Notes under the pieces: model-generated
Told to the model about the DNA's origin: nothing
The model's database searches: none
The model's input: the letters and a program-made list of their open reading frames with translations, nothing else
Program-made: the position numbers and the translations under genes
NCBI GenBank assembly: GCA_020426005.1
Contig: JAGQQW010000007.1
Span: 1-61,619 of the forward strand
Length of the DNA: 61,619 nucleotides
Reading direction: 5' to 3'
Origin: Planctomycetota bacterium
GTDB taxonomy: Bacteria; Planctomycetota; UBA1135; GCA-002748355
Shown: piece by piece, positions 11,083-32,030 of the stretch
How the letters are laid out: the number at the start of each line of letters is the position of its first letter
Position numbering within the stretch: the stretch's first letter is position 1

Positions 11083-13211
11083 AAGCGAGCACCATAGGTC
11101 TGTCTCTGATCGTCGTCCTCGGCGGTGGTTGGTTCGTATGGTCGAAGTTCCTCAAGAACCCGGCCGCCGAAGCGTCGAGCGCTTCGCTGATGACCGTCGA
11201 ACCCGGCACGCTGCGTGTCGAAGTCACGACGTCGGCGACCGTCTACGCGTCGAAGTCCGAAGTCGTTCGATGCAATGTCGAGGGACGCACGACGATCCTC
11301 TGGCTCGCCGAAGAGGGTAGGACCGTCAAGAAGGGTGAGAAGGTCGCCGATCTCGACGTCTCGTCGATTCGCGATCGTTCGGAGACGCAAGCGATCTCGG
11401 TCTCGCGCGCCAAAGCCGCACTCATCACGGCCGAGAAGAACCTCGAGATCCAGAAGAACCAGAACGCCTCGGACATCGAAGCAGCACGCAACGAAGTCCT
11501 CTTCGCGCAGCTCGAACTCGAGAAGTTCTTGGGGCGAGAAGAAATGCGACGTCGCGGCGACGTCCCTTCCGAAATCCTGAGCGAGGTGGACACAGCGTCC
11601 GCGAACAACTCGCCGTCACCGACCGAAGCCAGCAGTCAAGCAGGCGAAACCGGAAACACGACGATGGGCGTGCGACTGCAAGAGCTCGTTGCTGCGCGCG
11701 CCGACATCGAGATCGCCCAAGAGGAAGTCAAGCGCGCGCAGAACCGTCTGCGCTGGACGAAGGAGCTCTGGGAGAGCAAGTACGTCACCGACCAGGATCT
11801 AGAAGCCGATGAGCTGTCGCTCAAGAAGGCCGACAAGCAACTGACCCTCGCGCAGAACAAGCTCCACATCCTCGACCGTTACACGCTGCTCAAGACCGAA
11901 CGCGAACTCGTCGCAAAGGTCAAGGAAGCACAGGCCGAAGAGCGCCGCACCGAGCTCCGCTGCGAGGCGCGCATCGCGCAGGAAGAAGCCGATCTCAACT
12001 CCAAGAAGCAGGAGTTCGAACTCGAACAAGCCAAGTTCGACAAGTTCAAGGAACAGATCGCTTACGGCACGCTCTACGCACCGGGCGACGGCCTGATCGT
12101 CTATGCGACCGTCGGCGATCGTCGCCGGCAGGAGCCGATCGACCTCGGCACCGAAGTCCGGGAAGGGCAGGAGATCATCAAGCTGCCCGACGTCACGACG
12201 ATGCGTCTGCGCGCGAGCGTTCCCGAGTCGGTCGTGTCGAAAGTCGAGGAAGGACAGCGCGTCGAGATCAAGGTCCAGACCGTGCAGGACAAGATCTTCT
12301 ACGGCGAGATCACGAGAGTCGCGAAGGTGCACGACTCGTCCAACTCGTGGTTCAGCGACACCAAGGAATACCGCACCGACATCTCGATCTTCGGTTCGCA
12401 TCCCGAACTCCGCGAAGGCGTCTCCGCAACGGCGATGATCAAAGTCGCCGACCTCGAGAACGTGCTCACGGTCCCGGTCCACGCCATCCAACGCGCAGGC
12501 CAGGTGCTCTACGTCTGGGTCCAGACCGACAGCGGACCGGTCGAACGGATCATCGAGAAAGGCCTGTCGAACGAACGCCGCGTCGAAATCAAGAGTGGCC
12601 TGACCGCGGGCGACAAGGTCTGGCTGTCGACGCCACCGGGCGTGAAGCGACCGCTGTTCGAGAAGGAGAACGCGGAGATCCAAGCGAAGGAACAAGAGCG
12701 CAAGGAGCGCGCCATCGAATCGGCCGCGCAACGGCGCTCCTCGTCGGGTGGCCCGTCGTCGGGCGCCACGGAGGGTGGCGCTCCGACGAATCGTTCCCCC
12801 GGCGGAGCCGGACCGGGCAGCAACGCGAGCGGTGCCGGCGGACGGCCGGGCGGAAGCGGTGGCGCGAACGACGAAGAACGGCAGGCGCGCCGCCAACGCA
12901 TGACCGCGTTCGTGGAAGAGGTCAAAGCACGCTTCCCCGAGGACGCTGGAAAGCTCGAGAGCATCATGAGCCTGTTCCGTGACGCCGAGCTCCGCGCGAA
13001 GATCGACGCCGACCCGGTCCTGGGCCCGAAGTTGCGCGAGATGATGCAGGGCATGGGCAACCGCGGCCGCCGAGGCGGGCAAGGTTCCGGCGGACCCGGC
13101 GCAGCCGGTGATGGTCAGGCGCCTGGTGGTGACGGCTCCGGTCGCCCGCGACGAGGTGGCAACGGCGGCAGCTTCGGCGGTGGTAACCGAGGCGCAGGAC
13201 GCGATGGCTGA
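11079..13211 (+). CDS. MacA/HlyD-type periplasmic adaptor with Gly/Arg-rich C-terminal extension
   Basis: This is the predicted adaptor linking the MacB-type transporter to the TolC-like channel. The 710-residue protein has one N-terminal membrane anchor (about 7-24), a split lipoyl domain (TLRVEVTTSATVYASK near 45; GTLYAPGDGLIVYATVGD near 335), a very long coiled-coil hairpin between them, then beta-barrel and membrane-proximal domains (about 375-540). From about 545 it adds a non-family extension: charged helix, Gly/Ser-rich stretch, a predicted helical segment (MTAFVEEVKARFPEDAGKLE) and a Gly/Arg-rich tail to the end. Ordinary adaptors are around 370-450 residues. It overlaps both neighbours: ATGA with the channel gene and eight bases with the ATPase gene. 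Confidence 0.85.
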   Translation: MKASTIGLSLIVVLGGGWFVWSKFLKNPAAEASSASLMTVEPGTLRVEVTTSATVYASKSEVVRCNVEGRTTILWLAEEGRTVKKGEKVADLDVSSIRDRSETQAISVSRAKAALITAEKNLEIQKNQNASDIEAARNEVLFAQLELEKFLGREEMRRRGDVPSEILSEVDTASANNSPSPTEASSQAGETGNTTMGVRLQELVAARADIEIAQEEVKRAQNRLRWTKELWESKYVTDQDLEADELSLKKADKQLTLAQNKLHILDRYTLLKTERELVAKVKEAQAEERRTELRCEARIAQEEADLNSKKQEFELEQAKFDKFKEQIAYGTLYAPGDGLIVYATVGDRRRQEPIDLGTEVREGQEIIKLPDVTTMRLRASVPESVVSKVEEGQRVEIKVQTVQDKIFYGEITRVAKVHDSSNSWFSDTKEYRTDISIFGSHPELREGVSATAMIKVADLENVLTVPVHAIQRAGQVLYVWVQTDSGPVERIIEKGLSNERRVEIKSGLTAGDKVWLSTPPGVKRPLFEKENAEIQAKEQERKERAIESAAQRRSSSGGPSSGATEGGAPTNRSPGGAGPGSNASGAGGRPGGSGGANDEERQARRQRMTAFVEEVKARFPEDAGKLESIMSLFRDAELRAKIDADPVLGPKLREMMQGMGNRGRRGGQGSGGPGAAGDGQAPGGDGSGRPRRGGNGGSFGGGNRGAGRDG

Positions 13212-13959
13212 TCCGAAGTCCGGCGACACGCCGAGCAGCGACATCCTCGTCCGGCTCGACAAAGTCGAACGCCACTACGTCATGGGGCAAACCGTCGTCC
13301 GGGCGCTCGATGGTGTCGATCTCGAGATCAAGCGCGGCGAGTATTGGGCGATCGTCGGCCGTTCGGGCTCCGGCAAGTCGACGTTGCTCAACCTGCTCGG
13401 TTGTCTCGATCGCCCGACCGGTGGGCATTACTACCTCGGTGGCACGTCGGTCGGCGAACTCGATGACGACGAGATCAGCGAGATCCGCGGACAGCGCATC
13501 GGGTTCATCTTCCAGTCGTTCAATCTGATTCCACAGTTGACCGTGCTCGAGAACCTCGAGGTGCCGCTCTTCTATCAGGACATCGATCCGGCATACGCCC
13601 GGCAGCGCGCTGTCGACCTCGCGACCAAGGTCGGACTCGGCGAACGGCTCGACCACCGTCCCCTCGAACTCAGCGGTGGACAGCAGCAGCGCGTGGCGAT
13701 CGCACGCGCGCTGATGAACGACCCTCTGATCCTGCTCGCCGACGAAGCGACCGGGAACCTCGACTCGCGCACCGAACAAGAGATCCTCGCGCTCCTCGAC
13801 GAGCTCCACTCCGAAGGGAAGACGATCATCATGGTCACGCACGGGCAGACCGTCGCGGATCGCGCGCGACGCGTGCTCTACCTCCGTGACGGCAAGGTCG
13901 AGCAGATCGTCAAGAATCGAGAGTCCGCAATCCACGAAGACGCGGTGCTCGAACAATGA
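13204..13959 (+). CDS. MacB-type ABC transporter ATP-binding protein
   Basis: This cytosolic ATPase subunit (251 residues) powers the export complex made with the adjacent permease. Walker A is GRSGSGKST (52-60), the signature LSGGQQQ begins near 156, and Walker B is LILLADE with catalytic Glu181, followed by the D-loop SRTEQ region and the H-loop VTHGQ. The sequence belongs to the MacB/LolD subgroup (RALDGVDLEIKRGEY, FIFQSFNLIPQLT). I chose the ATG at 13204, which overlaps the adaptor stop by eight bases and gives normal subunit length; a longer frame upstream would duplicate adaptor coding sequence. The stop overlaps the permease ATG (ATGA). Confidence 0.93.
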   Translation: MADPKSGDTPSSDILVRLDKVERHYVMGQTVVRALDGVDLEIKRGEYWAIVGRSGSGKSTLLNLLGCLDRPTGGHYYLGGTSVGELDDDEISEIRGQRIGFIFQSFNLIPQLTVLENLEVPLFYQDIDPAYARQRAVDLATKVGLGERLDHRPLELSGGQQQRVAIARALMNDPLILLADEATGNLDSRTEQEILALLDELHSEGKTIIMVTHGQTVADRARRVLYLRDGKVEQIVKNRESAIHEDAVLEQ

Positions 13960-15230
13960 TCCGCGGCTCGACACTCCGCACCGTCCGACTCGGCGTCAAG
14001 AATCTGATGCTGCACCCGCTGCGGTCGTTCTTGACGACGCTCGGGATCACGATCGGCGTCGCCGCGGTCATCTGCATGCTCGCAGTCGGCGAAGGCGCGA
14101 GCTACGAAGCGCAGCAGAAGATCAAAGCGCTCGGCTCCAACAACATCCTGCTGCGCTCGGTCAAACCCGCCGAACTCGAGACACAGCAACAGAGCTCGAT
14201 GGCGCCGCAGCGGTACGGTCTCGAGTACGAAGAGGTCGAGATCCTCCGCGAGACGATGCCGGCGGTGCGTGTCGTCGTGCCGGTGCGAGAACTCAACAAG
14301 TCGGCCGCGTACGGCGAGTTCCAGGTCAACGTGCCGATCTACGGCACGACCGAGCAGTGGATGGCCGTCAGTGGCGTCAAGCTCTACGAAGGGCGCTTCC
14401 TCGTCGAAGCGGACAGCCGCTACTCCCTCAACGTATGTGTCCTCGGAACACACACCGCGGGTGAACTCTTCCCGTTCGAGAATCCGATCGGTGCGGACAT
14501 CCTCATCGCCAAGAAGAGCTTCCGCGTCGTCGGGATCTACGGACCGCGTGACGACAGTGAATCCGGCGCACTCGCTGCGGATGGCATCGTGATCCCGATC
14601 GAGAGTGCGCGCGAGTATTTCGGCGAGCTCGAGATTCGGACTTCCGCGGGGTCGCGGGAGTTCAAGATGGTGCAACTCCAGGAGATCAAGGTTCAGATCG
14701 AAGGCGAGGGCGACAAGCTCGAAGACAACGTCGTCGCTACGGCAGCATCGATTCGTCAGCTACTGACGCTGCTGCACGACCAACCCGACTACGTCATCGA
14801 CGTCCCACTCGAGAAGCTCCAAGCCGCGAAGGAGCAGGCGCAGATCTGGCAGATCTTCCTCGGCGTAATCGCTTCGATGGCCCTCGTCGTCGCCGGGATC
14901 GGGATCATGAACGTCATGCTCGCGACCGTGACCGAGCGCACGCGCGAGATCGGTATCCGTCGTGCGCTCGGGGCAAAACGCGGACACATCATCTCGCAGT
15001 TCCTCGTCGAGACGGTCGTGTTGTCGTGCGCCGGGGGACTTCTCGGTGTCGCGCTCGGGATTGCCGCGCCCATGATCGTCGAAGCCGCCTCGGGCATGAA
15101 GGCGATCTTCGTTCCGAGCTTCGCGGTTCTCGCGTTCACGATCTCCGCTGGCGTCGGTGTCCTCTTCGGGATCTATCCGGCATGGCGTGCCGCGCAGATG
15201 GACCCGGTCGAAGCCCTGCGACACGAGTAA
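13956..15230 (+). CDS. MacB-type ABC transporter permease
   Basis: The permease (424 residues) has the MacB layout. There is an N-terminal membrane helix (about 24-44, in HPLRSFLTTLGITIGVAAV), a large periplasmic MacB_PCD domain (about 50-285), and a C-terminal FtsX domain with three helices (about 293-318, 343-370, 383-408). The conserved ERTREIGIRRALGA segment lies between the first two C-terminal helices, and PVEALRHE ends the protein. These transporters act as mechanical pumps on periplasmic substrates, passing them through adaptor and channel. It is the last gene of the operon. A terminator-like hairpin lies 297 bases beyond its stop. The substrate cannot be told from sequence; peptides, lipids or macrolide-like compounds are typical for the family. 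Confidence 0.92.
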   Translation: MIRGSTLRTVRLGVKNLMLHPLRSFLTTLGITIGVAAVICMLAVGEGASYEAQQKIKALGSNNILLRSVKPAELETQQQSSMAPQRYGLEYEEVEILRETMPAVRVVVPVRELNKSAAYGEFQVNVPIYGTTEQWMAVSGVKLYEGRFLVEADSRYSLNVCVLGTHTAGELFPFENPIGADILIAKKSFRVVGIYGPRDDSESGALAADGIVIPIESAREYFGELEIRTSAGSREFKMVQLQEIKVQIEGEGDKLEDNVVATAASIRQLLTLLHDQPDYVIDVPLEKLQAAKEQAQIWQIFLGVIASMALVVAGIGIMNVMLATVTERTREIGIRRALGAKRGHIISQFLVETVVLSCAGGLLGVALGIAAPMIVEAASGMKAIFVPSFAVLAFTISAGVGVLFGIYPAWRAAQMDPVEALRHE

Positions 15231-16059: not shown

Positions 16060-19000
16060 ATGGCCGAACTCCCCAGCAGTATTCGTGTTCCGGTCGCAGA
16101 AGACTTGCGCCCCTACTTCGTGCTCGAGGTCGAATCCGAACTCGAAGGCGCGACGAGCCGCTTCGGTGGCTGGTGGGCCGCGGTTTGGTCGAGCTCGATC
16201 CCGTGCATGCAACTCGGTGTCGGCGACGGCTACCCCGTCGGACGCGCCATCGCAGTCGAAGACGACGGCGAGCGGAGCGTGCGCACCGAACTCCTCGCCA
16301 ACGCGGCGTTCTTCGTGACGACCAGGGAGTCGTCTCTTACCACCGCGCGCGAAGTCGGGGTGCAGACGCTCTTCGTGCCCGACGGCGAACCGAGAGTGGA
16401 TCCGCTTCCGGAAGCCGCCACGGGATTCGATCGGTGTCGAATCCTCAGGGCGCACACGTCGTTTCGTCGTGACCTGCTGCTCCAGGACGTCCAGCGTGAG
16501 TTCGAACGACTCGCGCCCGGCATCCTCCGACGCGATCTCGGCGAGAGCGCACGCTGTCGCGAACGCCTTCGACACTACCTGGGCGGCAAGCTCGCCGATC
16601 TCGGTCACGGCGGATGCAAAATCCTCCCGGATGCTGTCGGTGTCGACTTCTTCAAGTACGACGCCGACGACTGGATCGGGGACGTACGCGATCTCTACTT
16701 CTTCGGCGACCAGAGCTTCGACGCGGTCTACTCGTCGCATTGCCTCGAGGATCTCTGGGACCCCCGGCAAGCGCTCGAAGAGTGGTCCCGAATCCTGCGC
16801 ATCGGCGGGCATCTGAGCCTGTATCTCCCGCTTCGCGACTTCTACCCCAACGTCGGCACCGAGGGTGCGAATCCCGGCCACAAGGACGATTACGTCCCAG
16901 AGGATGTCGAAGGGTTCGCGAAGGACCTCGGCAATCTCGACGTCGTTCGCTCCGAGCGCTTCGAGGACGAAGACAGCTTCGAAGTGATCCTGCGCAAACG
17001 AGCAGGGAGGTCGTTCTACTTGCCGACTGGCAACTTCGGGCCGGTTGCGGGCACCACGGGTTCGGCATCCCCTTCCGGCGAACTACCGAAGGTGTCCGTG
17101 TTGATCGTCGAAAACGTCGATTCCAACGACGAACTCGCGGCACGGCGCCTGCGCACGACCATCGCGTGCGCCGAGCAATCCCTTGAAGGAGTGCCGCACG
17201 AAACACTCGTACTCGTGCGCACCCGCCATGCAATCGACGACCGGGCGAGTCTCGGCGAACTCGCGATCCTGCACGAGAACGTGAGGATCATCGAGGATCG
17301 CACACCGATGACCTATCCGGGCCGCGTCGCGCTCCTCGCGAAACAAGCACGCGCCGAGTTCTCGATTCACTTGCTGCCTGGGACCGTCCCCATCGGCAGC
17401 GCGTTGGAGCACCTTTTCGCCGCTGCGAGCAGTGGTGGAGGGTTCGCTTCTGCACGTGCGATCGGGATCGACGGCACGGAGCGCTCTCGCCAGGACGCGG
17501 TCGCCGCCGCTTCGTGCGTGGCCACACGCACGCTCGTGGACGACGCATTCGCGGGTTCGGCCTATCACACGCCGCTCGTGTTCGAAGCCCTGCTCCAGGA
17601 GCACGAGGCTGCGAGTTGCGCCACCAACGCTTGGGTCCTCACCGGCGGCATTCCGTCGATCCCCGACGCTGGCCGCGGCTATGGACAGCTCGCATTCGAT
17701 CGGTCTCTACTCGCGCGCCGCCTACCGGCGCGCCGGGGCGAGGATTCCCGCCATTCGGGGCAGCGGGTTCTCTTCGTATGCCTGCGAACGTTCGGCGACG
17801 CGATCTTGTCGACGATCGCACTCGACGCTCTCGCAAGGGAACACCCGAACGACCGGATCGACGTCCTCACCGAAGCGAGCAACGCCTGGATCTATGCGTC
17901 GCACGAACGCGTCGCACGCGTCGTGACCTGCCCACCCGCAGCCGAACGAGTCTCCGAAGAACTCGCGATCCATCGTGCACTGTTCGGCTGCGCCCCTCGA
18001 AGCGGCCAGGAACGATGCGAGTACGACCGCTTCGTCCTCTGTTCTCCGAGGCTCGACAATGCTAGCTACTGCGATGCCGGAGGGATGCGACTCGCGTCGT
18101 ATTACGCAGCTCAGGCAGGCGTCCGCACTTCTCGAGGGATCCCCGTGATCCGGGTCCCCGAAGACGCCACCCGCGAAAGCGACAGACTGCGCGCACGCCT
18201 CTTGCACGGCGCCCCGTACGCCGTCTTGCATACCACGGCAGGCTGGGATTCCAAGTCGCTGACACCTCCGCAAGCCATCCAGATCGTCGACAGACTCGCG
18301 TCGCATGGGCTTCCGGTCATCGTCGTCGGCGGACCCGACGAGCACGTCGACCATCCTAAGGCCATCAATCTCGCGGGCACCGTCCCCGCACCGACCAGCG
18401 CGGCACTCATCGCCGGCGCTACCTGCTACGTCGGGCCAGACTCGGGATGCCTGCATCTGGCATCGACGTTCGGGGTGCCTTCGCTCGCACTCTTCGCGGG
18501 CTCCCATCCGTGGATCGCACCGCCCCTCGCCGCGGGCAGCACGTCGCTGCTTTCGTTCACGAGCTGCGTGCGCCCCTGCGGTCGATCGTGTCGGGACAAG
18601 ACCTGCGACATGCGTGGCATTACCCGCGATCAACTCGAAACCGAAATCGACGCGCTCGTGCAGCGGGCGATGCACGGAGATCCACCGGCATGGGATACGG
18701 CGACCCACCGGGTCATGTGTGATGGAACCGAGGTGACGTGGATCGACGGACGAGACGGCCCAGAACGTCTCGAGGCGACAGCCTGCGCTGGCAATGTCGT
18801 CGACCTCGCCACCAACGGCACTCGCAGCGTCCACTCTGCGAACCAGTTCGCGCAGCTCGATGCGATCACGCTCGGTGAGCCCGCTACAGAGTTGCAGCGG
18901 ATCCGCAGCGCGTTGGTCGAATCCGAGACTCCCGCGCGGTATGCGGTTCACCACAGCCCGCAGCTCGAAGCGATCCTTGCCAGACTGGATCGCCGCACGC

Positions 19001-19668
19001 GGCTCGACGCGTTCATCACCTTGGCGGCACACGCCGCTCACGTTTCGAACACGTCGCTGGCGATCTCGTGGCTCGAACGCGCAGCACTCCATCTACGAGC
19101 GACGATCGCCGGTGAGAACGGGCGAGCACGTCCGGCGTACTCCGCGTGGCTCGACGTCGTGTTCGCCTTCCTCACCACGGTCCCACCGAGCGGCGACTAC
19201 ACGGTGGCGAGCATCACGGAGCACGCGCTCGCGTTCTGGTTCGAGCATCTCGAAGCCGCACCTTCGTCGCACACGCTCTTGCAACTCGGCCCTGCATGCC
19301 GACACGCACCGGAGTCCTTGCGCAATACGATTGCCGACAACCTCGAACGCATCGAAGAGCACCGTATCGGCTACAACGAACTGCGCCGCTGCAACGCTGC
19401 GCTTCGCCTGCTCGGGCGCCCCGAACGCGCGCTGCAATTGATCAACTCGAGGCGACGACGCATCCAAGACCCCGTACTCCTCGGCAATCTCGCATGGGAC
19501 AAGGCGCTCGTTCTTCTCGAAGACGAGACGCGTCGCGACGAACTCGCGAGCGCGTTGCTCGAAGCGAGCCGCTTCTCGGATACGGAAGCGACACGCGAAG
19601 TCGCCGGACGCCTGCTAGCGACACTGCCCGTCACCACGAAGGACAGCCTCGCGATGCAGCCCGCGTGA
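16060..19668 (+). CDS. Multidomain methyltransferase / GT2-like / GT9 glycosyltransferase fusion
   Basis: The ~1202-residue cytosolic protein joins several parts. Residues about 165-300 resemble a class I SAM methyltransferase (GVDFF... SFDAVYSSHCLEDL... RILRIGGHLSLYLPL). Residues about 345-530 look like a GT-A fold with no clear DxD. Residues about 570-850 are a GT9 (ADP-heptose:LPS heptosyltransferase-like) domain, with RVLFVCLRTFGDAILS, HTTAGWDSKSL, YVGPDSGCLHLAS, and a Cys cluster CGRSCRDKTCDM. About 300 helical residues of unknown type follow. GT9 enzymes normally act alone at around 350 residues. I chose the ATG at 16060 because GAGG ends five bases before it; a GTG at 16054 is possible. 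It heads a run of glycosyltransferase-like genes and may act on a surface glycan; the substrate is unknown. Confidence 0.75.
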   Translation: MAELPSSIRVPVAEDLRPYFVLEVESELEGATSRFGGWWAAVWSSSIPCMQLGVGDGYPVGRAIAVEDDGERSVRTELLANAAFFVTTRESSLTTAREVGVQTLFVPDGEPRVDPLPEAATGFDRCRILRAHTSFRRDLLLQDVQREFERLAPGILRRDLGESARCRERLRHYLGGKLADLGHGGCKILPDAVGVDFFKYDADDWIGDVRDLYFFGDQSFDAVYSSHCLEDLWDPRQALEEWSRILRIGGHLSLYLPLRDFYPNVGTEGANPGHKDDYVPEDVEGFAKDLGNLDVVRSERFEDEDSFEVILRKRAGRSFYLPTGNFGPVAGTTGSASPSGELPKVSVLIVENVDSNDELAARRLRTTIACAEQSLEGVPHETLVLVRTRHAIDDRASLGELAILHENVRIIEDRTPMTYPGRVALLAKQARAEFSIHLLPGTVPIGSALEHLFAAASSGGGFASARAIGIDGTERSRQDAVAAASCVATRTLVDDAFAGSAYHTPLVFEALLQEHEAASCATNAWVLTGGIPSIPDAGRGYGQLAFDRSLLARRLPARRGEDSRHSGQRVLFVCLRTFGDAILSTIALDALAREHPNDRIDVLTEASNAWIYASHERVARVVTCPPAAERVSEELAIHRALFGCAPRSGQERCEYDRFVLCSPRLDNASYCDAGGMRLASYYAAQAGVRTSRGIPVIRVPEDATRESDRLRARLLHGAPYAVLHTTAGWDSKSLTPPQAIQIVDRLASHGLPVIVVGGPDEHVDHPKAINLAGTVPAPTSAALIAGATCYVGPDSGCLHLASTFGVPSLALFAGSHPWIAPPLAAGSTSLLSFTSCVRPCGRSCRDKTCDMRGITRDQLETEIDALVQRAMHGDPPAWDTATHRVMCDGTEVTWIDGRDGPERLEATACAGNVVDLATNGTRSVHSANQFAQLDAITLGEPATELQRIRSALVESETPARYAVHHSPQLEAILARLDRRTRLDAFITLAAHAAHVSNTSLAISWLERAALHLRATIAGENGRARPAYSAWLDVVFAFLTTVPPSGDYTVASITEHALAFWFEHLEAAPSSHTLLQLGPACRHAPESLRNTIADNLERIEEHRIGYNELRRCNAALRLLGRPERALQLINSRRRRIQDPVLLGNLAWDKALVLLEDETRRDELASALLEASRFSDTEATREVAGRLLATLPVTTKDSLAMQPA

Positions 19669-19717
19669 GCGCGCGTCCCTCAAGTCGAACGTCTGAACTG
19701 CCGATGAGAAGGGCATC

Positions 19718-20473
19718 GTGAAGGACCGTCGCATCAGTGCGTATTTGACGACCTCGAATCACGGACGCGAGGCTGTCGGCCTCGACGAGATCCTGGCGTC
19801 GTATCTCACGTTCTCGAGCGAAGTCGTCGTCTGCGACCGCGACAGCCATGACGGGACATGGGAAGAGCTGCGTCACATGACGCAGCAAGACTCTCGTGTT
19901 CGTCTCCTGCGCTGCACCTCGTTGACGCTTCCGCACGACGCACTCTCGCTCGCGCGTGAGGCATGTCGATGCCCCTGGACTTTCGAAGGCTCACCGACGC
20001 TCGTCGTCGATGACTCCGACTCGCCGGGCTTCGATGCGCTGCTGGACCTGCTCGACGACGAGTGGCGGACGCGCGACGGGTGGCCGTGCATCGCGCTCCC
20101 GGTCCTTCGATTCCGTGGCGGAGTCGAGCACGTACGTCGCGACCGCCCTCTTTCGAGGCCGTCGCTGTCATGCAACGATCCGGAGATCACGCACGACATC
20201 CAAGGTCTGACCGATCGGCATACGGGAACACCGATCCCTTGTATCGAAACCGTGCCAGCGGACGTCGAAGCACTGCGGCATGACGGTAGCCACGCTACGG
20301 AACTCGGCGACGCACTCGACCGCGCAACGCACGGCATCCCCGTACTGTGGTGTCACGAGTCGATTCGCGACGTCCTCCCACCGAACCGGCTGCCGAGCGG
20401 CCTCGTCCCGACTCCGCTGCGTCGGACGCGCGTCCTGCGCCCGCAGCCTCGACCGATCTCCGTCGTACACTGA
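19718..20473 (+). CDS. GT2-like glycosyltransferase-related protein
   Basis: The 251-residue protein starts from a GTG with AAGGG a few bases upstream. Its first half looks like a GT-A fold. ISAYLTTSNHGR opens it, followed by SEVVVCDRDSHDGTWEELR, the position where family 2 enzymes carry the nucleotide-sugar-binding Asp and the S-x-DGT signature, and then VVDDSDSP in the place of the DxD motif. The second half is short and shows no membrane helix. It lies 49 bases after the fusion gene, on the same strand. I consider it a divergent GT2-family protein; activity is unproven because acceptor-side motifs are not obvious. Confidence 0.55.
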   Translation: MKDRRISAYLTTSNHGREAVGLDEILASYLTFSSEVVVCDRDSHDGTWEELRHMTQQDSRVRLLRCTSLTLPHDALSLAREACRCPWTFEGSPTLVVDDSDSPGFDALLDLLDDEWRTRDGWPCIALPVLRFRGGVEHVRRDRPLSRPSLSCNDPEITHDIQGLTDRHTGTPIPCIETVPADVEALRHDGSHATELGDALDRATHGIPVLWCHESIRDVLPPNRLPSGLVPTPLRRTRVLRPQPRPISVVH

Positions 20474-20480
20474 GACGGTT

Positions 20481-20945
20481 TCATTCGGTGCGCGTGAAGG
20501 TCGCCTGCATGAGAGGCTGCCAAGCGACGCCGTCCTGCGACAAGGCGATCTCGAACACGTAGCCATCGTCCTTGAACGTGTAGCGGTAGCGGTTGTGCCC
20601 GTGCGGCGTCGCCTTCTCGAACGTGAGAACATCACCTTCGAACTGCCCGTCGACGACCGATCCGGGACCGCCCATCGAATCGAACCAGTGCATGCGATAG
20701 CACGCGTTTTCGGCGTCGTAGCCGTACACGCCGTGACCGCGGAAGTTGACAGTCGAACCTTCCGACTGCACGTAGTCGGACACGACGAAGAAACCATCCA
20801 GCATCTTCGCATGGAGCGTGCTCGTACGACGGCGCTCTTCTGGCCCCCATGCCGAAGCGAACTGGATCTCTTCCCCCGTGAAGGTGCCGCACATCGCCTC
20901 GAGTCTGCGATGTTCGGGGAGCGGTTGCGGTGCCGTGAATGCCAT
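20481..20945 (-). CDS. DUF1579 family protein
   Basis: The 154-residue protein has the DUF1579 pattern of a small beta-barrel-like fold: an N-terminal HRRLEAMCGTFTGEE, then strands with RRTSTLHAKMLDGFFVVSDY, NFRGHGVYGYD and HWFDSMGG, and a C-terminal EKATPHGHNRYRYTF segment. The family's biochemical role is not established. The ATG at 20945 has AGAGG about eight bases upstream; a longer frame further upstream lacks family resemblance. It lies antisense between two glycosyltransferase-like genes and ends only seven bases from the end of the preceding one, so it interrupts that cluster. Confidence 0.75.
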   Translation of the reverse strand: MAFTAPQPLPEHRRLEAMCGTFTGEEIQFASAWGPEERRRTSTLHAKMLDGFFVVSDYVQSEGSTVNFRGHGVYGYDAENACYRMHWFDSMGGPGSVVDGQFEGDVLTFEKATPHGHNRYRYTFKDDGYVFEIALSQDGVAWQPLMQATFTRTE

Positions 20946-21154
20946 GGCCGGACCTCTGATGTGGACTTCGCGCATCATGAGCCTCGAGAGCGCCGGCTGC
21001 ACGCGGCGTTCTCGTGACGCTCTCCCGCTCGTGGTGTTCGCCAGCTCCACGGTGTCATCGCGAGTTCGAGCTCGCAGAACAACTCTCCTGCGATTCGCCC
21101 ACCGTCGTTGCCGATAAGCCCGAAACACGGCTTTCGGCGGGGAGAAGACGGCGA

Positions 21155-22180
21155 GTGCACAAGATCAGCGGCTACACGATCTGCTTCGATGCGAACGCAC
21201 GAGGGGTCGATCTCGAGGCGAGCATTCGATCGTTCTTGCAAGTCTGCGACGAGGTCGTCGTCGTCGACTGCAATGCGGACGGCAATGAAGGCGGCGACAG
21301 CCTTCGAGCCTTGTCGAATAGCGAATCTCGACTCCGGATCGTCCACGAGCCGATCGACCGAGATAGCCCGAGCGCGGCGTTCGACCTGATGTTCGCGAGG
21401 CCGACTCGTGCTCGACAGGAGTGCAACGGGACCGCCGTCTTGAACTTCGACCTCGGCGACTTCGCCGATGCAGACCACCGCGACGATCTTCGCGCGCTCG
21501 CCGATCGACTCGAGTTCGAAGAAGCCCACGTAGGCGCGTATGCACTTCCGCGCGCGGTGCACGCCGCCGACCCAAGGACGTGTGACGCCTCACTCGGTTC
21601 GTCGATCTGCCTCTCCCGGAACGATCCGTTCTACGTTCACGACCTGCAACGGTCGTGGCGTCGGTTCCAGGCCGAAGGAACGCTGCGGATCGGTGTCGGA
21701 ACCCAATCGCACGCTCGCATCGTTCGAAACGACACGCTGAACCCGGTTCCTCATGCCCCGATCCACGACCCGAGGATCGAGGCCTGGATCGAAGACGCAA
21801 GAGGCGTCGGCTCTGCTGCCCTCCTCGCGCGGGACGAACTCCAGATCGCTCTCAACGCCGCCTTCGAAGTGCAGCCGACGATCGTGCGGTACCTGTCCGA
21901 GGAAGCACAGCGTCTGCGCATCGAGTGGATGCGCGACTGGTGGCTACCGAAACTCATCGAATCGTGCGACGAGGAAGCGACCGAACGCCTGCGCGACCAC
22001 GAACGGTGGGATCCATGGTTGCTCGCTTCGTGCGACCTGGCGGAAACGTTCACGAGTGGTACGTCGCCGCAGGAGCGCCGTTCGATCTTCGTCGCGTGCG
22101 GTCGCGTATGCGCCGACGAGACTCGCGGCCTCGCAACACAAGACCTCGTCACGCGTGAGGGCGCAGGGACACACCGATGA
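21155..22180 (+). CDS. GT2-like glycosyltransferase-related protein
   Basis: About 341 residues from the GTG at 21155, chosen because GGGGAG lies about 11 bases upstream and the fold begins directly after it (ISGYTICFDANARGVDLEAS). CDEVVVVDCNADGNEGGDSL corresponds to the GT2 nucleotide-binding strand and DGT-like loop. The C-terminal ~150 residues are helical and Trp-rich (RIEWMRDWWLPK), without a membrane segment. The stop overlaps the next gene (ATGA). The three GT-like proteins of this cluster share the core pattern but little direct identity by eye. Role inferred: sugar transfer or a catalytically reduced relative; acceptor unknown. Confidence 0.55.
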   Translation: MHKISGYTICFDANARGVDLEASIRSFLQVCDEVVVVDCNADGNEGGDSLRALSNSESRLRIVHEPIDRDSPSAAFDLMFARPTRARQECNGTAVLNFDLGDFADADHRDDLRALADRLEFEEAHVGAYALPRAVHAADPRTCDASLGSSICLSRNDPFYVHDLQRSWRRFQAEGTLRIGVGTQSHARIVRNDTLNPVPHAPIHDPRIEAWIEDARGVGSAALLARDELQIALNAAFEVQPTIVRYLSEEAQRLRIEWMRDWWLPKLIESCDEEATERLRDHERWDPWLLASCDLAETFTSGTSPQERRSIFVACGRVCADETRGLATQDLVTREGAGTHR

Positions 22181-24543
22181 ATCTCCTCGTTCTCGAATGC
22201 TGCCGGCAATCCCGCCGACTGCTCTCGCGCCTCGTGGCAGCAACGCGCCAAGACATCGAAGACCTGACGATCGTCCTGATCACACGAGAAGGAGCGACGC
22301 CCGACGCCCGGATCCTCGAGATCGCGCGATCGAGCAGCAGTTGCGATTTCGTGACGATGCAGCTGAGAGATGACGACGGGTTGGGCAGCCTCCTTCGACT
22401 CGTTCGGAAGCGCTACAAGGATGCGAACAAGATCGCGATCTGCTTCGACGACGAGACTCTCGTGCACCCGCAGGCGTTGCGCCGCATGTTCGCGGAGATC
22501 GGCGGTCAGGTCGTGTATGCCGTCGCTGGCTACATTGCCCGCGATGGATCCGCACAGCGCAGTGGCGACGTGGCGGACGGTGCGTTGCCGTCGTTCTCTG
22601 CCGATCGAATCGACGGTCTCGCGGTCGCAGAACTCGACGCTCTCGACGCGATCCATGCGAACGATTCGGAAGGTCGCCGAACGCGGCGCCGCGTGCTCGC
22701 GGAGAGCCTGATCCGCAGCGACACTTCGACCTACGTGACCGAGCTCCTCGTCGAGCGAGACATTGCATCGATTCGCGTCGAGTACGCCCGTGCGGATGCG
22801 CCAGTCACCTTCACGTGCGTTGCACCCGGCGCTGCTGGTTCCTCCGCACCCGTGATGCCTGCGGAAGGATCGGCGACGACACGGACCACACCGTCCACGA
22901 ATGCAATCCCCGAAGCTGAGCACGACTTCGACGACGAACCTCTGCTCGCACACGCATTCCGCCAGGACGAGGCCTCTCGAACCATCAGCTCGGACGAGCC
23001 CGAACGCCACGAGCCGCCACCTTCGGTAGGCTTCGACCCGGGACTGTCGATGGACGTCGACACGTCGTTCGCGAGCGAGTCGCTCGATGACGATGCAAAG
23101 GCACTCTTGACCGAACTCGCAACCGAGGGTCGCCTCGACCTCGAAGAGCTCGAAGCGAGCCTCAAGGACGACGACGCTTCCTCGATCCTCTTCGTTTCCC
23201 GCCTACCGGGTTTGCCGGACGACTTCCGCAAGCGGATGCGCGCGAAGTTCATCGACGCCGGCGGCGATCCCGATCTGGTTCGCGACGAAGAGCCCGCTTC
23301 GAAGAAGTCCGCGGCGGCAGGATCGCTCTCGATGGACGACTTGGGTGTGAGCGACCTGGACGCGGATACGCGCGCAATCCTCGAGGCCGCAATCGAAGGT
23401 CCACCGGACCTGAGTTGGCTCGAAGAAGACGTCGAAGACGAGTCCGCGACGCGGGCTGAGAACAACGCGGAGCCGGACGACTACGCGATCGACGACGCAC
23501 TCGACCGTCTCAAACAGCTCGAGAAGAAGCTCGAAGACGAAGAGCCCGAAGAGGAGAAACCGAGCGCACTCGACGGTTGGTTCGAAGACTTCGAGCGAGA
23601 AGAGGACGAGAAGGCACCGGCTCCGACGCCGAGCGAACCGGAGTCGCCAGCCCCCAAGACACGCAAGAAACTGGACATCGACTTCACGCTCGAACCCGAA
23701 TCGAATGCGAACCCGCTGGCCTGGAAACCGGCGAGTGAGTTCGACGGCATTCGAGATCGTGCCCGAGAGATCGCGAGTCAGATCGCCGAAAGCCTCGTGA
23801 GTCTCCAGCAGCCGAACGGCGAGTTTCTCGAACCCGAGCGCTATGCCAAGGAATGTGCGGCGGCACTGTGGCACGGCCTCGACCGGCAACTGTACCGAGG
23901 TGCGATCCAGAAGGCGCTCGACGCGAGCCAGCGGCGGGCCGAGGCGTTGACCCTTCAGAACCAAGATGACGGGCAAGCGCCGATGCGCGCATATGCCCTC
24001 GGGGCCATGGGCTTCGCGGACGCAGCTCGTCAGCCTCTGGACAGCAAGTATTGCATCGACACGCTCGTCGAAGCCGTCCTGTGCAGTCGTCGCGGTGAAG
24101 TCTTCGACCTCAAACGAGTCAACATGGTGAGGCGTGCGCTCGACGACACGGGTGCACTCTTCGACCGGTGGGCACCGGAGGACCCCGACGCGAGCGTTCT
24201 ATCCGCACGCGACCAGGCCTTTGCGACTCTGCTCGCTAGCGAGCTCGCTCTCCGCAATCCCGACCAGGGTTCGATCGTGAGCTTCGCACGCGAACTCGAA
24301 GACAGGCTTCTAGCACTGGCTCGCACCAAAGCGGGAGCAGCCATGTCGATCGCTGCCTCGGCATATCGCTGCGCCGACCGGCGCGACGACGGCAACTTGA
24401 TGCACCTCATCATCGACCGCTTCGCGAATGCGAGCTGGGACGGAGCCGACAACGCGAGCGGCGAAGGACACAGCGAAAGCCTGTCTTACTTGGGGCTGCA
24501 CCTGGCATTCGACCCGGCACTCGAATCGGCGGAGGCTTACTGA
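22177..24543 (+). CDS. GT-A-like N-terminus, acidic linker and helical C-terminal domain; function unknown
   Basis: The 788-residue protein has three parts. Residues 1-205 look like a GT-A fold (LIVLITREGATPDARILEI-like strands; ICFDDETLVHPQAL in the DxD position). Residues about 215-515 are acidic and low in hydrophobics, with short repeated helical modules around DDDAKALLTELATEGRLDL and DLDADTRAILEAAIEGPPDL. Residues about 520-788 are helical, with LVSLQQPNGEFLEPERYAKE and regularly spaced helices that recall an alpha/alpha toroid of the kind seen in cyclases and some glycosidases. It overlaps both neighbours (ATGA before, TGATG after), so it is cotranslated with them. I do not recognise the family. 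Confidence 0.6.
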   Translation: MNLLVLECCRQSRRLLSRLVAATRQDIEDLTIVLITREGATPDARILEIARSSSSCDFVTMQLRDDDGLGSLLRLVRKRYKDANKIAICFDDETLVHPQALRRMFAEIGGQVVYAVAGYIARDGSAQRSGDVADGALPSFSADRIDGLAVAELDALDAIHANDSEGRRTRRRVLAESLIRSDTSTYVTELLVERDIASIRVEYARADAPVTFTCVAPGAAGSSAPVMPAEGSATTRTTPSTNAIPEAEHDFDDEPLLAHAFRQDEASRTISSDEPERHEPPPSVGFDPGLSMDVDTSFASESLDDDAKALLTELATEGRLDLEELEASLKDDDASSILFVSRLPGLPDDFRKRMRAKFIDAGGDPDLVRDEEPASKKSAAAGSLSMDDLGVSDLDADTRAILEAAIEGPPDLSWLEEDVEDESATRAENNAEPDDYAIDDALDRLKQLEKKLEDEEPEEEKPSALDGWFEDFEREEDEKAPAPTPSEPESPAPKTRKKLDIDFTLEPESNANPLAWKPASEFDGIRDRAREIASQIAESLVSLQQPNGEFLEPERYAKECAAALWHGLDRQLYRGAIQKALDASQRRAEALTLQNQDDGQAPMRAYALGAMGFADAARQPLDSKYCIDTLVEAVLCSRRGEVFDLKRVNMVRRALDDTGALFDRWAPEDPDASVLSARDQAFATLLASELALRNPDQGSIVSFARELEDRLLALARTKAGAAMSIAASAYRCADRRDDGNLMHLIIDRFANASWDGADNASGEGHSESLSYLGLHLAFDPALESAEAY

Positions 24544-25151
24544 TGAACGTACTCGAACACCCGGTCATTGCCCGAGGCCTCCGAATCGAGACGCGAGACG
24601 AATCGATCGCGACGCCGTCGCTATCGCCGCTGCACGCGGCTCGATCCTCGAAGGATCCAGCCGGAATCCGCATGACTGTGGGTGGCGGGATCTTGCTGTG
24701 CAGCCAAGTCGAGATGGCCGGTTGGAGCGATTGGAACATCGAGGTCATCGAACCGACATCCGTCGTATCGATCTCCGTCGAGTGGCGCCTCGACGGCAAT
24801 CTCGTCGACATCGTGCGCTTCGGAGACAAACACGTCGCTCGCGGCACGCGGGTCGTGCACGTTACGGACGTGCGCGACGTCTTCTTCGGGCGTATGCACC
24901 TGCGGCGTTTGCCACCCACGATGCCGGATGATTTCGAGTCCTGCCTCGTGCTGACGAGCCATGCCTCGGATTGGATCCTGCGCAGCACGATGCGATCGCG
25001 CCCACCCGAGGACCTCGAACTCGATGCGCAGATTGCATTCCATCGACGCATGCGCGTCTCCCCCGAACTCTCGAGCCTCACGGACGAGTCCCGAACGCTT
25101 GCCGCCGGCACGAAGATCCGCCTCGGCCTGACCGAGGTCACACCGATCTGA
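24543..25151 (+). CDS. Hypothetical protein, last gene of glycosyltransferase-like cluster
   Basis: The 202-residue protein has no membrane segment or signal peptide. The middle is beta-rich (MTVGGGILLCSQVEMAGWSD, VVSISVEWRLDGN, RVVHVTDVRDVFFGRMHLRR), suggesting a small beta-sandwich. I do not recognise a family. Its ATG shares one base with the upstream stop (TGATG), so it is coupled to the GT-A/helical protein and probably works with it. A 50-base gap separates it from the kinase gene. Confidence 0.5.
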   Translation: MNVLEHPVIARGLRIETRDESIATPSLSPLHAARSSKDPAGIRMTVGGGILLCSQVEMAGWSDWNIEVIEPTSVVSISVEWRLDGNLVDIVRFGDKHVARGTRVVHVTDVRDVFFGRMHLRRLPPTMPDDFESCLVLTSHASDWILRSTMRSRPPEDLELDAQIAFHRRMRVSPELSSLTDESRTLAAGTKIRLGLTEVTPI

Positions 25152-25201: not shown

Positions 25202-28200
25202 ATGGGCTCGAGAGACGAGCAGATCGATTCGATTCTCGAGCGATGCTTCGCTACGGATCCAGCGCGGTTCGAAGCGGAGATTCGCGCGGCTTGCTCGGCT
25301 CATCCCGAGCTCGCAACAGCCATCGAGGCACGCCTCGAAAAACTGCGACGGATAGGATTCCTCGAGGCACACGAACCACGTGGAATCGACGTTCTGCAAA
25401 TCGAAGACTTCACGCTTCGCGAAGCACTCGGCCGAGGAGGCATGGGCGTCGTTCATCGGGCGACTCAGACCTCACTGGGCCGCGATGTCGCGCTCAAACT
25501 GATTCGACCCGAGTTCCTGTTCTTCGAGGGCGCGCATCAGCGCTTTCACCGCGAAATCGTCGCGATCTCGAAGCTGCAGCATCGCAACATCGTCCCGGTT
25601 CTCGCCTCCGGAGAGGCGAGCGGGACGCCTTGGTTCGCAATGGAGCTCCTGCGTGGCGCGTCCCTGCGCGACCTCTTGGACGAGTTGGCAAAGCAACCCC
25701 CTCAGGACACGACGGCAGCAGACTACGGCACAGCGCTCCTCAGGCGCGCACACGCGACCGACGAGGTCCGGGACGACGCGTTCACCGGGACGCGCATCCA
25801 GTGCGCGATCCGCATCGTCAGAGACGTCGCCAACGCGCTCGAACACGCTCACGGACGCGGTGTCATCCACCGCGATGTCAAGCCGTCCAACATCTCGGTC
25901 GAGCCGGATGGGACGATTCGCCTGTTCGACTTCGGACTGGCGCGCTCGGGGGACATCGACGCCCGCATGACTCAGGATCCAGGCACGCTCGGATCTCTGC
26001 ACTACATGCCTCCCGAGGCGTTGCGTGGTGAAATCGCGGCCCCCGAACGCGGAGACGTCTGGGCGCTCGGCGTCATCCTCTACGAACTACTGACGCACCG
26101 TCGCCCATTCGAGAGCAAAGACAGGGAATCCCTGCGTGAGTCGATTCTCGCCGCGACTCCGTCGAGACCACGCGAGTACGATCGTGCGATCCCGGTCGAT
26201 GTCGAGACCGTTTGCGCCACGGCACTCGAGCCGTCCGAAGCGCGTCGCTACGCGAGCGCACGTGATTTCGCGCGCGATCTGGATCACCTTCTCGCGCACC
26301 GCCCGATCGAAGCACGTCCCCCGGGTCGTGCATTGCGTCTCCGTCGTTGGATCCAGCGTCATCCGACGATGAGCGTCGCCGTACTTCTCGGGTTCTTTCT
26401 CCTCGTCGTGGCACCTCTCGTCACGATCTCACAAGTACTGCGCGAACGAAACGCCGCCATCGCCGAGCGAGATCGCGCGGACCGGATCGGCTATTCCGCC
26501 GGGCTTCTCGCGGCCGACACGTCGACGAGGAACTCCGAGATCTCGGTCGCGAAGGCGTTCTTGTCGGGGTGCGCAGAAGAGCTCCGGGACTTCGAGTGGC
26601 GACACCTGTCCACGCTCGTCGATTCGCGGTCGAGTCGACTCGCGATTCCAGCGCGCGCCTTCGACCTACGTGCCGTCGATGATCGCACGGTCGCGTTCGT
26701 CGACGGCGGGAACACCATCAGGCTCGTCGGCGTACCGAACATCGAAGTTCGCAGCGAACTGCAAATCGAGAACGCCTCCCTCACAGCCATCTCGAGTGTT
26801 CCTGACGAGCACGGAGGAATCGACGTCATCGTCGGGGATTCACAGGGCACGATTCACGTCGTGCCACGAACGCTCGCAGGCTCGTCGCGCTCCACGATCC
26901 GGACCGGATCGACTCCGATCCGCGCGATCATCACAGATCCGAAGTCGTCATCACGCATCGGAATCCTCGCAGCGACTCTCCTTGATGACTTCGGGCCGGA
27001 CGGCAGCACCCTGCACGTCTTCGAGCGGGATGGCGCGCGATGGAGTCCCGTCGTATCTCGGCAATTTGCCGGTGCTGCGGCTCGCAGTGTGGTGTTCGAC
27101 CCCGATCACGATCGACTTTATTTCGATCGTGGCAATGACATCCTCCAGTGGGACTATCGAACAAACGGAGCCCCGCGTCTGTTGTCTCGATCGAGTCACC
27201 GCATCAAGGCGCTCGCCGTGTTGCCACGCGAACGACGGCTTCTCGTCGCGCGCCAAGCAGCGACGATCCTCGCGATCGATCTCGAGCAACCCGACGATGT
27301 CAGGTCGCTCACGTCGCACGATGCACAAGTGGTCGACCTCTGCGTCGACGACGACGGTCGCAGCTTCGTATCGGCGAGCTGGGACAAGACCGTCACACTT
27401 TGGAACGACCAATCCGACGCGACACCACGCCGTCTGCGCGGCTCCGACGAGTCCCTGGACACAGCCGCTCTTTGCGGCGCGTTCGTCGTCGCGACGAGTT
27501 CACGCATCGTTGCTGGCGAGGGAGAGCCGGAGCTTCACGTCTGGCGACGTTCCGCTGCACCGCGCGCCACGTTCACACTGGCACGACCCGTCGCCAGATT
27601 GGCATTCGATGCGCAGCGATCGACCCTCTACGCAGGTGGCTACGACGGCCTCATCAGGGCGTTCGACATCGATGAGAATCGGTTGCGCTTCGTGCTGTCG
27701 CACGGCCGCCCGCCGACCGCACTCCTCGTCGTCGGCGAAACCTTGCACGCCGTCGATGCGAACGGCACATGGACGACTTGGAAGAACGGTGCGGAAACAC
27801 GCCGCTTGCAGCAAGGCCACGCCATCACAGCACTCGTTCACTCCACGACCACGGGCGATCATGGCAGCTTTCTCGCGGGAACCTCCGATGGACGCGTGAT
27901 CGAGTTCGATCCGGACGGCAATCCCGTGAGGAGCATCGAGCTCGGCACTTCGCTCGTGCGTTGCATCGTCCTGAGCCCGAACCGCGACATGTTCTGCGCG
28001 ACCGACGATGCGGGCGATGTTCATTTGATCGCGAACGACACGCTCGAACGCAAGTTGTCGTTTCGTGCACTCGAAGCTCGCGCGTTCGCCGCGGCGTGGT
28101 CGTCGGATGGCAGCAGGCTCTTCGTCGCCGGCAAGGACCGCAGGATCGTGTGCCACTCGGCGCAGGACGGAAAACGGCTAGGCGTCTTGCACGGCCACGA

Positions 28201-28423
28201 TGGCGGTGTGCACGACCTCGTGATGAATCCATCGGGAACTCGCCTGTTCAGTGCAGGGGCGGGCGACTTCAGCGTTCGGATCTGGAATCCCGAGAACTTC
28301 GAGCTGCTGTTCACGATTCGTGGACACGGCTCCGCGATTCTCGATCTCGCGATCGACACCGAAGGGCATCGAATCGCGACCGGCGACATGCGCGGACTGG
28401 TCCGCGTCGTGTCGGATCATTGA
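25202..28423 (+). CDS. Membrane Ser/Thr protein kinase with C-terminal WD40 repeats
   Basis: This 1073-residue kinase resembles the large planctomycete Hanks-type kinases. Kinase motifs are the glycine loop GRGGMGVV (77-84), Lys99 in VALKL, the catalytic loop HRDVKPSN (223-230), DFG (243-245) and an MPPE P+1 region. A single membrane helix follows at about 389-408 (SVAVLLGFFLLVVAPLVTIS). The rest, about 480-1073, is a row of WD40-type blades (for example FVSASWDKTVTLWN and LFSAGAGDFSVRIWN), placed outside the cytoplasm if the kinase is inside. An N-terminal ~65-residue helical segment precedes the kinase. It converges on the ECF sigma gene at 28444-29043; in this phylum such sigma factors are often paired with kinases, so a signalling link is inferred. 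Confidence 0.88.
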   Translation: MGSRDEQIDSILERCFATDPARFEAEIRAACSAHPELATAIEARLEKLRRIGFLEAHEPRGIDVLQIEDFTLREALGRGGMGVVHRATQTSLGRDVALKLIRPEFLFFEGAHQRFHREIVAISKLQHRNIVPVLASGEASGTPWFAMELLRGASLRDLLDELAKQPPQDTTAADYGTALLRRAHATDEVRDDAFTGTRIQCAIRIVRDVANALEHAHGRGVIHRDVKPSNISVEPDGTIRLFDFGLARSGDIDARMTQDPGTLGSLHYMPPEALRGEIAAPERGDVWALGVILYELLTHRRPFESKDRESLRESILAATPSRPREYDRAIPVDVETVCATALEPSEARRYASARDFARDLDHLLAHRPIEARPPGRALRLRRWIQRHPTMSVAVLLGFFLLVVAPLVTISQVLRERNAAIAERDRADRIGYSAGLLAADTSTRNSEISVAKAFLSGCAEELRDFEWRHLSTLVDSRSSRLAIPARAFDLRAVDDRTVAFVDGGNTIRLVGVPNIEVRSELQIENASLTAISSVPDEHGGIDVIVGDSQGTIHVVPRTLAGSSRSTIRTGSTPIRAIITDPKSSSRIGILAATLLDDFGPDGSTLHVFERDGARWSPVVSRQFAGAAARSVVFDPDHDRLYFDRGNDILQWDYRTNGAPRLLSRSSHRIKALAVLPRERRLLVARQAATILAIDLEQPDDVRSLTSHDAQVVDLCVDDDGRSFVSASWDKTVTLWNDQSDATPRRLRGSDESLDTAALCGAFVVATSSRIVAGEGEPELHVWRRSAAPRATFTLARPVARLAFDAQRSTLYAGGYDGLIRAFDIDENRLRFVLSHGRPPTALLVVGETLHAVDANGTWTTWKNGAETRRLQQGHAITALVHSTTTGDHGSFLAGTSDGRVIEFDPDGNPVRSIELGTSLVRCIVLSPNRDMFCATDDAGDVHLIANDTLERKLSFRALEARAFAAAWSSDGSRLFVAGKDRRIVCHSAQDGKRLGVLHGHDGGVHDLVMNPSGTRLFSAGAGDFSVRIWNPENFELLFTIRGHGSAILDLAIDTEGHRIATGDMRGLVRVVSDH

Positions 28424-28446
28424 CGGCTTGCCGGCAAACGCCGTCA
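28421..28446. terminator. Palindromic hairpin shared by two converging stop codons
   Basis: TGACGGC (28421-28427) and GCCGTCA (28440-28446) are perfect complements with a 12-base loop that itself contains TTGCCGGCAA. The arms include the TGA stops of the kinase gene (plus) and the sigma gene (minus). There is no T-run, so it may act as a bidirectional transcript end by hairpin only. Confidence 0.45.
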
Positions 28447-29043
28447 GTCGGACAAGATCGATGACAGTTTGACGAGCGCACGCGCGAGCATCATGCGCAC
28501 GGCGTCCTCCCCACGATCGGTGAGTTCCGCGATCTCGCGGTTCGTGTAGCCGTAGATCCGCGACATCGTGAGAAGTTCACGATAGTGCTCCGGGAGCGCT
28601 TCGAACGCAGCATGGACACGCTCGATCTCCTCGTGCACGGCAGCGTCACGACTCGGCGTGAAGAGCGTACCGATCCGCTCTTCGATCGAGGCATCCGAGC
28701 TGATCGACGACGCCGACAGGCTCTGCTCGCGATCGACGCTTCGACGCTGGGCATGCCAGTATCTCGCGCGATCTTGGACCTTTCGCAACGCGAGCGTGAA
28801 CAACCAGTGCCGGAACGCGGCTTCACTGCGATACTCGAAGGCATCCGCTTCGACGAGACACTCACGACACACGGACTGGACGAAGTCCGAAACGGAGTCC
28901 TTGGCGAGAGCCCGATCGCTCAGCCGCAGACGCAAGAATGCTCGCAGGCGCGGAAGATGCCTGGCCAGCAGCTGCGTGACGGCCTGCTCGTCGCCTCGCG
29001 AAGCCTCACGGACCAACTTCGAACCCTCGTCCCAATCTGCCAC
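28444..29043 (-). CDS. ECF-type RNA polymerase sigma factor
   Basis: About 199 residues from a GTG at 29043. Region 2 is visible (ASRGDEQAVTQLLARHLPRL to the aromatic RHWLFTLALRKVQDRARYW), and region 4 with its helix-turn-helix (LPEHYRELLTMSRIYGYTNR, then EIAELTDRGEDAVRMML). The spacing is that of an ECF factor with regions 2 and 4 only. The start is uncertain: the frame stays open upstream but would run into the diverging glycosyltransferase gene at 29204, and no strong Shine-Dalgarno is seen. It ends beside the WD40 kinase gene, and the two probably form a signalling pair, though they converge rather than share an operon. Confidence 0.82.
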   Translation of the reverse strand: MADWDEGSKLVREASRGDEQAVTQLLARHLPRLRAFLRLRLSDRALAKDSVSDFVQSVCRECLVEADAFEYRSEAAFRHWLFTLALRKVQDRARYWHAQRRSVDREQSLSASSISSDASIEERIGTLFTPSRDAAVHEEIERVHAAFEALPEHYRELLTMSRIYGYTNREIAELTDRGEDAVRMMLARALVKLSSILSD

Positions 29044-29203
29044 GTGTGGATGATCCCAGCGAACGGTCCCGATGACAACTCCGCCACGAGCACCGAGGGC
29101 ACCAAGCTCCCTTGTCACCGAACTGGAAGTCGACAGGACCAGGAGGATCCAGCTCACGACCCCGATCCGTCGAAGAACACGACATGCGTACTCTGGAGGA
29201 AGC

Positions 29204-31957: not shown

Positions 31958-32030
31958 GACGAAAGCCTGTAGGACCAAGGACCGGGCAAAGGGTGGGCTT
32001 CGCCCCGAGACCGTATGGTTAAATCCACAC

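Follow-up and report, generated by a model that had tools for sequence, protein, structure and literature searches.

Gene content of the P1 to P5 cassette

Five genes forming a glycosyltransferase (GT)-rich cassette, designated P1 to P5, were analyzed on contig C613 of genome G000, a Planctomycetota metagenome assembly that is 67% complete and whose phylum was inferred from named relatives; the whole contig, 61,619 nucleotides long, is hereafter called the window. All five lie on the plus strand: P1 (16054-19668, 1204 amino acids), P2 (19718-20473, 251 amino acids), P3 (21155-22180, about 341 amino acids), P4 (22177-24543, 788 amino acids) and P5 (24543-25151, 202 amino acids). A first-pass annotation made from the DNA alone had placed these genes correctly, but it had overlooked two genes, one of the DUF1579 family lying between P2 and P3 and one for a GT4 at 29072-30427. 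The overlaps that it had reported among the last three genes were confirmed, P3 and P4 sharing 4 bases (ATGA) and P4 and P5 a single base (TGATG). A longer open reading frame (ORF) for P3 begins at 21014, but translation more probably starts from the GTG codon at 21155, as identity with the closest relative sets in just upstream of this codon.

This relative (G001, record CALLZN01, hereafter the sister) was the sole genome of the same genus compared, and its contig G001:C138 carried all five genes in the same order and on the same strand. Amino acid identities were 59% for P1, 54% for P2, 56% for P3, 67% for P4 and 55% for P5, divergence was highest at the third codon position, and ratios of nonsynonymous to synonymous divergence (dN/dS, NG86) ranged from 0.23 to 0.42, these being approximate values since dS was near 1. 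P1 to P5 are therefore not chance ORFs, but real coding genes under purifying selection. The flanking exporter genes displayed 79-90% identity and dN/dS of 0.11-0.18, and the quicker protein divergence of the cassette fits that of surface-glycan genes.

None of the five proteins has a convincing membrane helix: no 19-residue window of P2 to P5 reached a Kyte-Doolittle value of 1.6, and the only one above it in P1 (1.77) fell within the Rossmann lobe of its GT9 domain. These observations support a soluble set, in agreement with the first-pass annotation. Its further remark that the set lacks its own flippase or polymerase held for the principal ORFs, a subset of those in the window, that were compared with Pfam, and sets the locus apart from O-antigen or exopolysaccharide loci of the Wzx/Wzy type.

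P1 had been described as a triple GT fusion. This was not borne out: a methyltransferase and a GT9 domain were assigned above Pfam cut-offs, and the region between them is a degenerate GT2-like one. Residues 1-160 received no assignment. The region at about 160-330 belongs to the class I S-adenosylmethionine (SAM) methyltransferases (PF08241, E = 1e-9, 39.2 bits against a cut-off of 21.2), with an atypical glycine motif, DLGHGGxK. It is followed by a degenerate GT2-like region (343-555), a GT9 domain (570-870; PF01075, E = 3e-10, 40.1 bits against a cut-off of 22) and an uncharacterized C-terminus (880-1204). A profile of five P1 homologues compared with the PDB matched best the GT9 structure 3tov (1.6e-14), and also 1psw (1.9e-9). 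The motifs LRxxGDxxL of the N-lobe and GPDSGxLHxAS of the C-lobe were invariant in all five homologues, and AGWxxK was found in four, the fifth having an arginine. P1 shares the C-lobe motifs, LRxxGD and a C-terminal cysteine motif (C-x3-C-x3-C-x4-C; C838, C842, C846 and C851) with the GT9 family (heptosyltransferases I, II and III; PDB 3tov, 1psw and 2gt1), whereas the fused methyltransferase, the degenerate GT2-like region and the N- and C-terminal extensions are additional. It scored far below the named lipopolysaccharide heptosyltransferase I, II and III equivalogs of NCBIfam (best TIGR02201, 42.2 bits against a cut-off of 170.2). No description of GT9-methyltransferase fusions in Planctomycetes was found in the literature searched. 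As for the GT2-like region, two profile comparisons with GT-A sets gave it a probability of 42-69% and two more gave less than 10%, and PGT occupies the presumed site of an acidic motif that active relatives, we assume, would carry at this position.

P2 and P3 are paralogous, divergent GT2-type proteins. In single-sequence searches P2 matched PF00535 under the cut-off (E = 0.0022) and P3 had no Pfam match. However, a combined P2/P3 profile matched GT2 sets with 96-97% probability (E about 1e-10), which indicates GT2 GT-A homology and bears out the two GT2-like proteins announced by the first-pass annotation. With hhalign, P3 aligned to a GT2 subfamily (85%, E = 6e-6) and to P2 (93%, E = 3e-7). 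Both are related to this subfamily, whose members occur in further genomes of the order (L083-L085, L097); P2 and P3 align across the GT-A domain with such PF00535/PF13704-type Planctomycetota proteins (e.g. L083, L084, L085), but they stay below Pfam cut-offs and their acidic/histidine motif is partly lost. In both species P2 keeps VVDDxD and P3 only a GD pair, and the QGDExxHEDD motif of the canonical subfamily is complete in neither protein. A further P2/P3 paralogue was observed in the sister (L030, G001:C240, 6480-7529, minus strand), beside a histidine-specific methyltransferase gene (PF10017), with a formamidopyrimidine-DNA glycosylase gene nearby. Alignments of P3 to P5 comprised two sequences (window and sister), plus one more paralogue in the case of P2/P3, and therefore place few constraints on folds and catalytic status.

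P4 and P5 appear from homology searches to be genus-restricted orphans. P4 matched no Pfam or NCBIfam family at a significant E-value. Its AlphaFold2 model (pLDDT 40) suggests a low-confidence alpha/beta N-terminus, an acidic linker with repeats and an all-helical C-terminus. The acidic motif [SD]LDxD[AT][KR]A[IL]L occurs at protein positions 302 and 393; the looser form [SD]xDxDxxxA[IL]L has two copies in the window (302 and 393) and three in the sister (266, 335 and 423). The acidic and helical parts of the first-pass description were thus retrieved, but not its GT-A domain: the best match was PF13641 (E = 0.14), hhalign gave less than 1.5% against GT2 sets, in a test using a two-sequence alignment that a very distant relationship could escape, and the fold model was of low confidence. 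P5, described earlier as a small beta-rich protein coupled to P4, does overlap P4 by one base; it is probably beta-rich, as predicted by a low-confidence AlphaFold2 model (mostly beta, pLDDT 51, pTM 0.53), and its best Foldseek match had an E-value of 0.09, with nothing at E ≤ 0.001. No homologue of either protein was found beyond the sister among 154 genomes of the order, nor in plasmids. P4 had none among 392 genomes of the phylum, and P5 had only weak matches among 294, the best of them (E = 7e-4) scoring about 20 bits across 88 residues; these were treated as chance.

Genomic context in relatives

The left flank of the cassette (9373-15230) is a predicted tripartite exporter of the MacAB-TolC type, conserved and entirely on the plus strand. 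It comprises an OEP gene (9373-11082, Pfam OEP 2e-26), a HlyD-like adaptor (11079-13211, HlyD_D23 3e-9), an ABC ATPase (13108-13959, ABC_tran 2e-33) and a MacB/FtsX permease (13956-15230, MacB_PCD 4e-33). On the other side, the GT4 gene (29072-30427, plus strand) encodes a TuaH-like protein, with PF13692 above cut-off (6e-7) and NCBIfam TuaH below it (2.7e-19). The conserved right flank is a SpoU-type RNA methylase gene (32046-32798, plus strand), which shows 58% identity with its counterpart at the sister locus and is also present in L130, L132 and L136.

The order in the sister is OEP-HlyD-ABC-MacB-P1-P2-P3-P4-P5-GT4 on a single strand, with no other gene recognized from P1 to GT4. GT4, which is 79% identical there, directly follows P5 and therefore probably belongs to the P1-P5 unit. 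Three genes of the window had no match at the sister locus: the DUF1579 gene (20481-20948, minus strand, PF07617 4e-16), a Ser/Thr kinase with a WD40 propeller (25202-28423, plus strand; Pkinase 7e-39, WD40 2e-26) and, convergent with the latter, an extracytoplasmic function (ECF) sigma factor (28444-29253, minus strand, Sigma70_r4_2 3e-13). The kinase and sigma factor genes, located between P5 and GT4, look like an inserted signaling pair.

Genes in relatives were called with a simple in-house codon-position score and no trained gene finder. The OEP-HlyD-ABC-MacB block was retained in all six same-family relatives, with varying content downstream, and the cassette occupies a variable slot between this block and the GT4 to SpoU genes. 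Downstream of MacB, G003 carries an exosortase-EpsI gene, then GT4 and a second GT4, with SpoU farther along. In G005, GT4 adjoins an exosortase and a second GT4 on a contig apart from the exporter; in G002, GT4-GT4-SpoU form a group some 20 kb away from the exporter, and the slot of G004 holds an aminotransferase-like gene and SpoU. The second GT4 scored highest against GT models of exosortase-associated and exopolysaccharide type, without reaching their cut-offs.

Outside the sister, the P1 family was found without P2-P5 in G006, G020 and G026; a further homologue (L036) lies at the edge of its contig, preceded by a histidine kinase-like gene, so that the presence of P2-P5 cannot be judged there. 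The G006 homologue adjoins a nucleoside diphosphate-sugar epimerase and a protein with two GT4 (GT-B-type) domains and a methyltransferase. This homologue (L028, 9229-14274, minus strand) itself bears an additional C-terminal methyltransferase (PF13578).

The GT4 and P1 neighborhoods in relatives point to surface polysaccharide. The GT4 context counts in this direction because the usual surroundings of exosortase genes are exopolysaccharide genes (PMC1569441). The first-pass annotation had seen no fit to known polysaccharide loci. The absence of flippase and polymerase genes from the cassette agreed with this statement, but the location of GT4 beside exosortase/EpsH in G003 and G005, and of a P1 homologue beside an epimerase in G006, did not, both being common settings for genes of the exopolysaccharide type. 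Unlike exosortase (EpsH)-associated exopolysaccharide loci, the window showed no exosortase (PF09721), the only one detected in G000 being on contig C621.

Functional interpretation

We consider it fairly probable that P1-P5 and GT4 constitute a lineage-specific cytoplasmic glycan-assembly cassette that makes a surface polysaccharide or core and relies on export genes located elsewhere. The set seems to be an ordinary surface-sugar gene cluster in a form specific to this lineage, and no new kind of system. The reality of the genes, the domains of P1, P2, P3 and GT4, the conservation in the sister and the variable slot are observations; the scheme that follows goes beyond them in what it says of the sugar and its acceptor, of P4 and P5, and of a single pathway, all of which we infer. 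The GT9 domain of P1 would transfer heptose, or a different nucleotide-activated sugar, onto a growing and probably lipid-linked acceptor, and the methyltransferase would decorate or cap the glycan. P2 and P3 would add further sugars, one or both being perhaps catalytically dead, and GT4 would attach another residue. P4, with its acidic repeats and helical domain, and the beta-rich P5 may be non-catalytic and may serve as a scaffold for the soluble enzymes or as glycan-binding partners. Flipping, polymerization and export would be ensured by machinery encoded elsewhere.

Several observations weigh against this interpretation. Genes for a flippase, polymerase, ligase or initiating transferase are missing from the cassette, as are nucleotide-sugar genes. 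The usual acidic metal-binding motif is incomplete in the GT-A-like regions of P1 and P3, and no fold could be assigned to P4 or P5. In G020 and G026, the P1 homologue stands alone among unrelated genes. Conservation of gene neighbors, the check proposed with the first-pass annotation, was verified in the sister, where the order of P1 to P5 is kept, but P2-P5 accompany P1 in that one other genome only.

Alternatively, soluble GTs could modify target proteins in the cytosol before export, the GT9 domain acting like autotransporter heptosyltransferases and P4 and P5 selecting or presenting the target. The solubility of P1-P5 and the lack of a membrane partner in the cassette would be in line with such protein glycosylation, and protein-modifying GT9-like enzymes do exist: the autotransporter heptosyltransferases (TibC/AAH, BAHT; PMC4358343) are soluble, have a GT-B domain resembling GT9 and carry four cysteines near the C-lobe, as does P1 toward its C-terminus. 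However, the cysteine spacing of P1 (x3/x3/x4) is unlike that of TibC (339, 342, 358 and 370; PMC4358343), P1 is fused to a methyltransferase and a GT2-like region, and its NCBIfam matches at E up to 1 include no autotransporter-heptosyltransferase model. No obvious substrate gene lies next to the cassette, no autotransporter was noticed nearby, and the nearest genes in relatives are of polysaccharide type, so that we regard protein glycosylation as rather unlikely. Should a protein be the target, cytosolic GT9-type protein glycosylation would reach past the autotransporter heptosyltransferases.

The erosion of the QGDExxHEDD-type motif in P3, the PGT at its presumed equivalent in P1 and the modest GT-A probabilities of the P1 region could also be explained by a partly degenerate cassette, in which P2, P3 and this region are pseudo-glycosyltransferases binding or scaffolding around an active GT9-methyltransferase and GT4. 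The retention of VVDDxD in P2 and of the GD pair in P3 in both species speaks against this explanation, which seems improbable to us; purifying selection was seen, but it cannot tell active from inactive enzymes. Equally little credence is given to a self-contained cytosolic machine in which the pseudo-GTs (P2, P3 and the P1 region) would form a complex with P4 and P5 and bring the GT9-methyltransferase to its target, either a protein or a lipid-linked molecule, and we know of no described GT9 system with an arrangement guided in this way. Finally, the genes might be unrelated and merely collected in the variable slot, with no common function. The changing content after MacB among same-family genomes and the two insertions (DUF1579; kinase/sigma) that split the genes in the window would accord with this idea, but P3, P4 and P5 are translationally coupled, four of the six genes are GTs or methyltransferases, and order and strand are the same in the sister though the cassette proteins are just 54-67% identical, which makes it very improbable.

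The slot beside a conserved MacB-type exporter takes different genes in related genera, glycan genes included, and the cassette adds to these a methyltransferase-GT9 fusion family and two orphan partners. To our knowledge, surface-glycan assembly in Planctomycetota is poorly characterized.

Other features of the window

GC content across the cassette region was flat (62-66%), and a mobile island was rejected on this compositional ground. An anti-phage defense system was likewise rejected, since neither P1-P5 nor GT4 matched a PADLOC model (E up to 0.1). No Rfam match reached its gathering score between 15000 and 30500.

A pattern scan retrieved a terminator-like hairpin between MacB and P1 (15527-15561, plus strand), with 15 pairs followed by a T-rich tail. 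It suggests that the exporter operon ends ahead of P1 and that the cassette is a separate transcription unit, in a scan whose total showed no enrichment (8 hairpins found against 9.4 expected from shuffles).

Further downstream, the first 75 codons or so of a radical SAM ORF (30446-32314, minus strand) are antisense to the SpoU gene, and its true start is probably located further in. Both genomes encode a kinase fused to an FGE-sulfatase (formylglycine-generating-enzyme-like) domain (window 37927-40851, minus strand; L138 15068-17812, plus strand). A BacA-type undecaprenyl-pyrophosphate phosphatase is encoded at 44657-45652 (minus strand), about 20 kb from the cassette.

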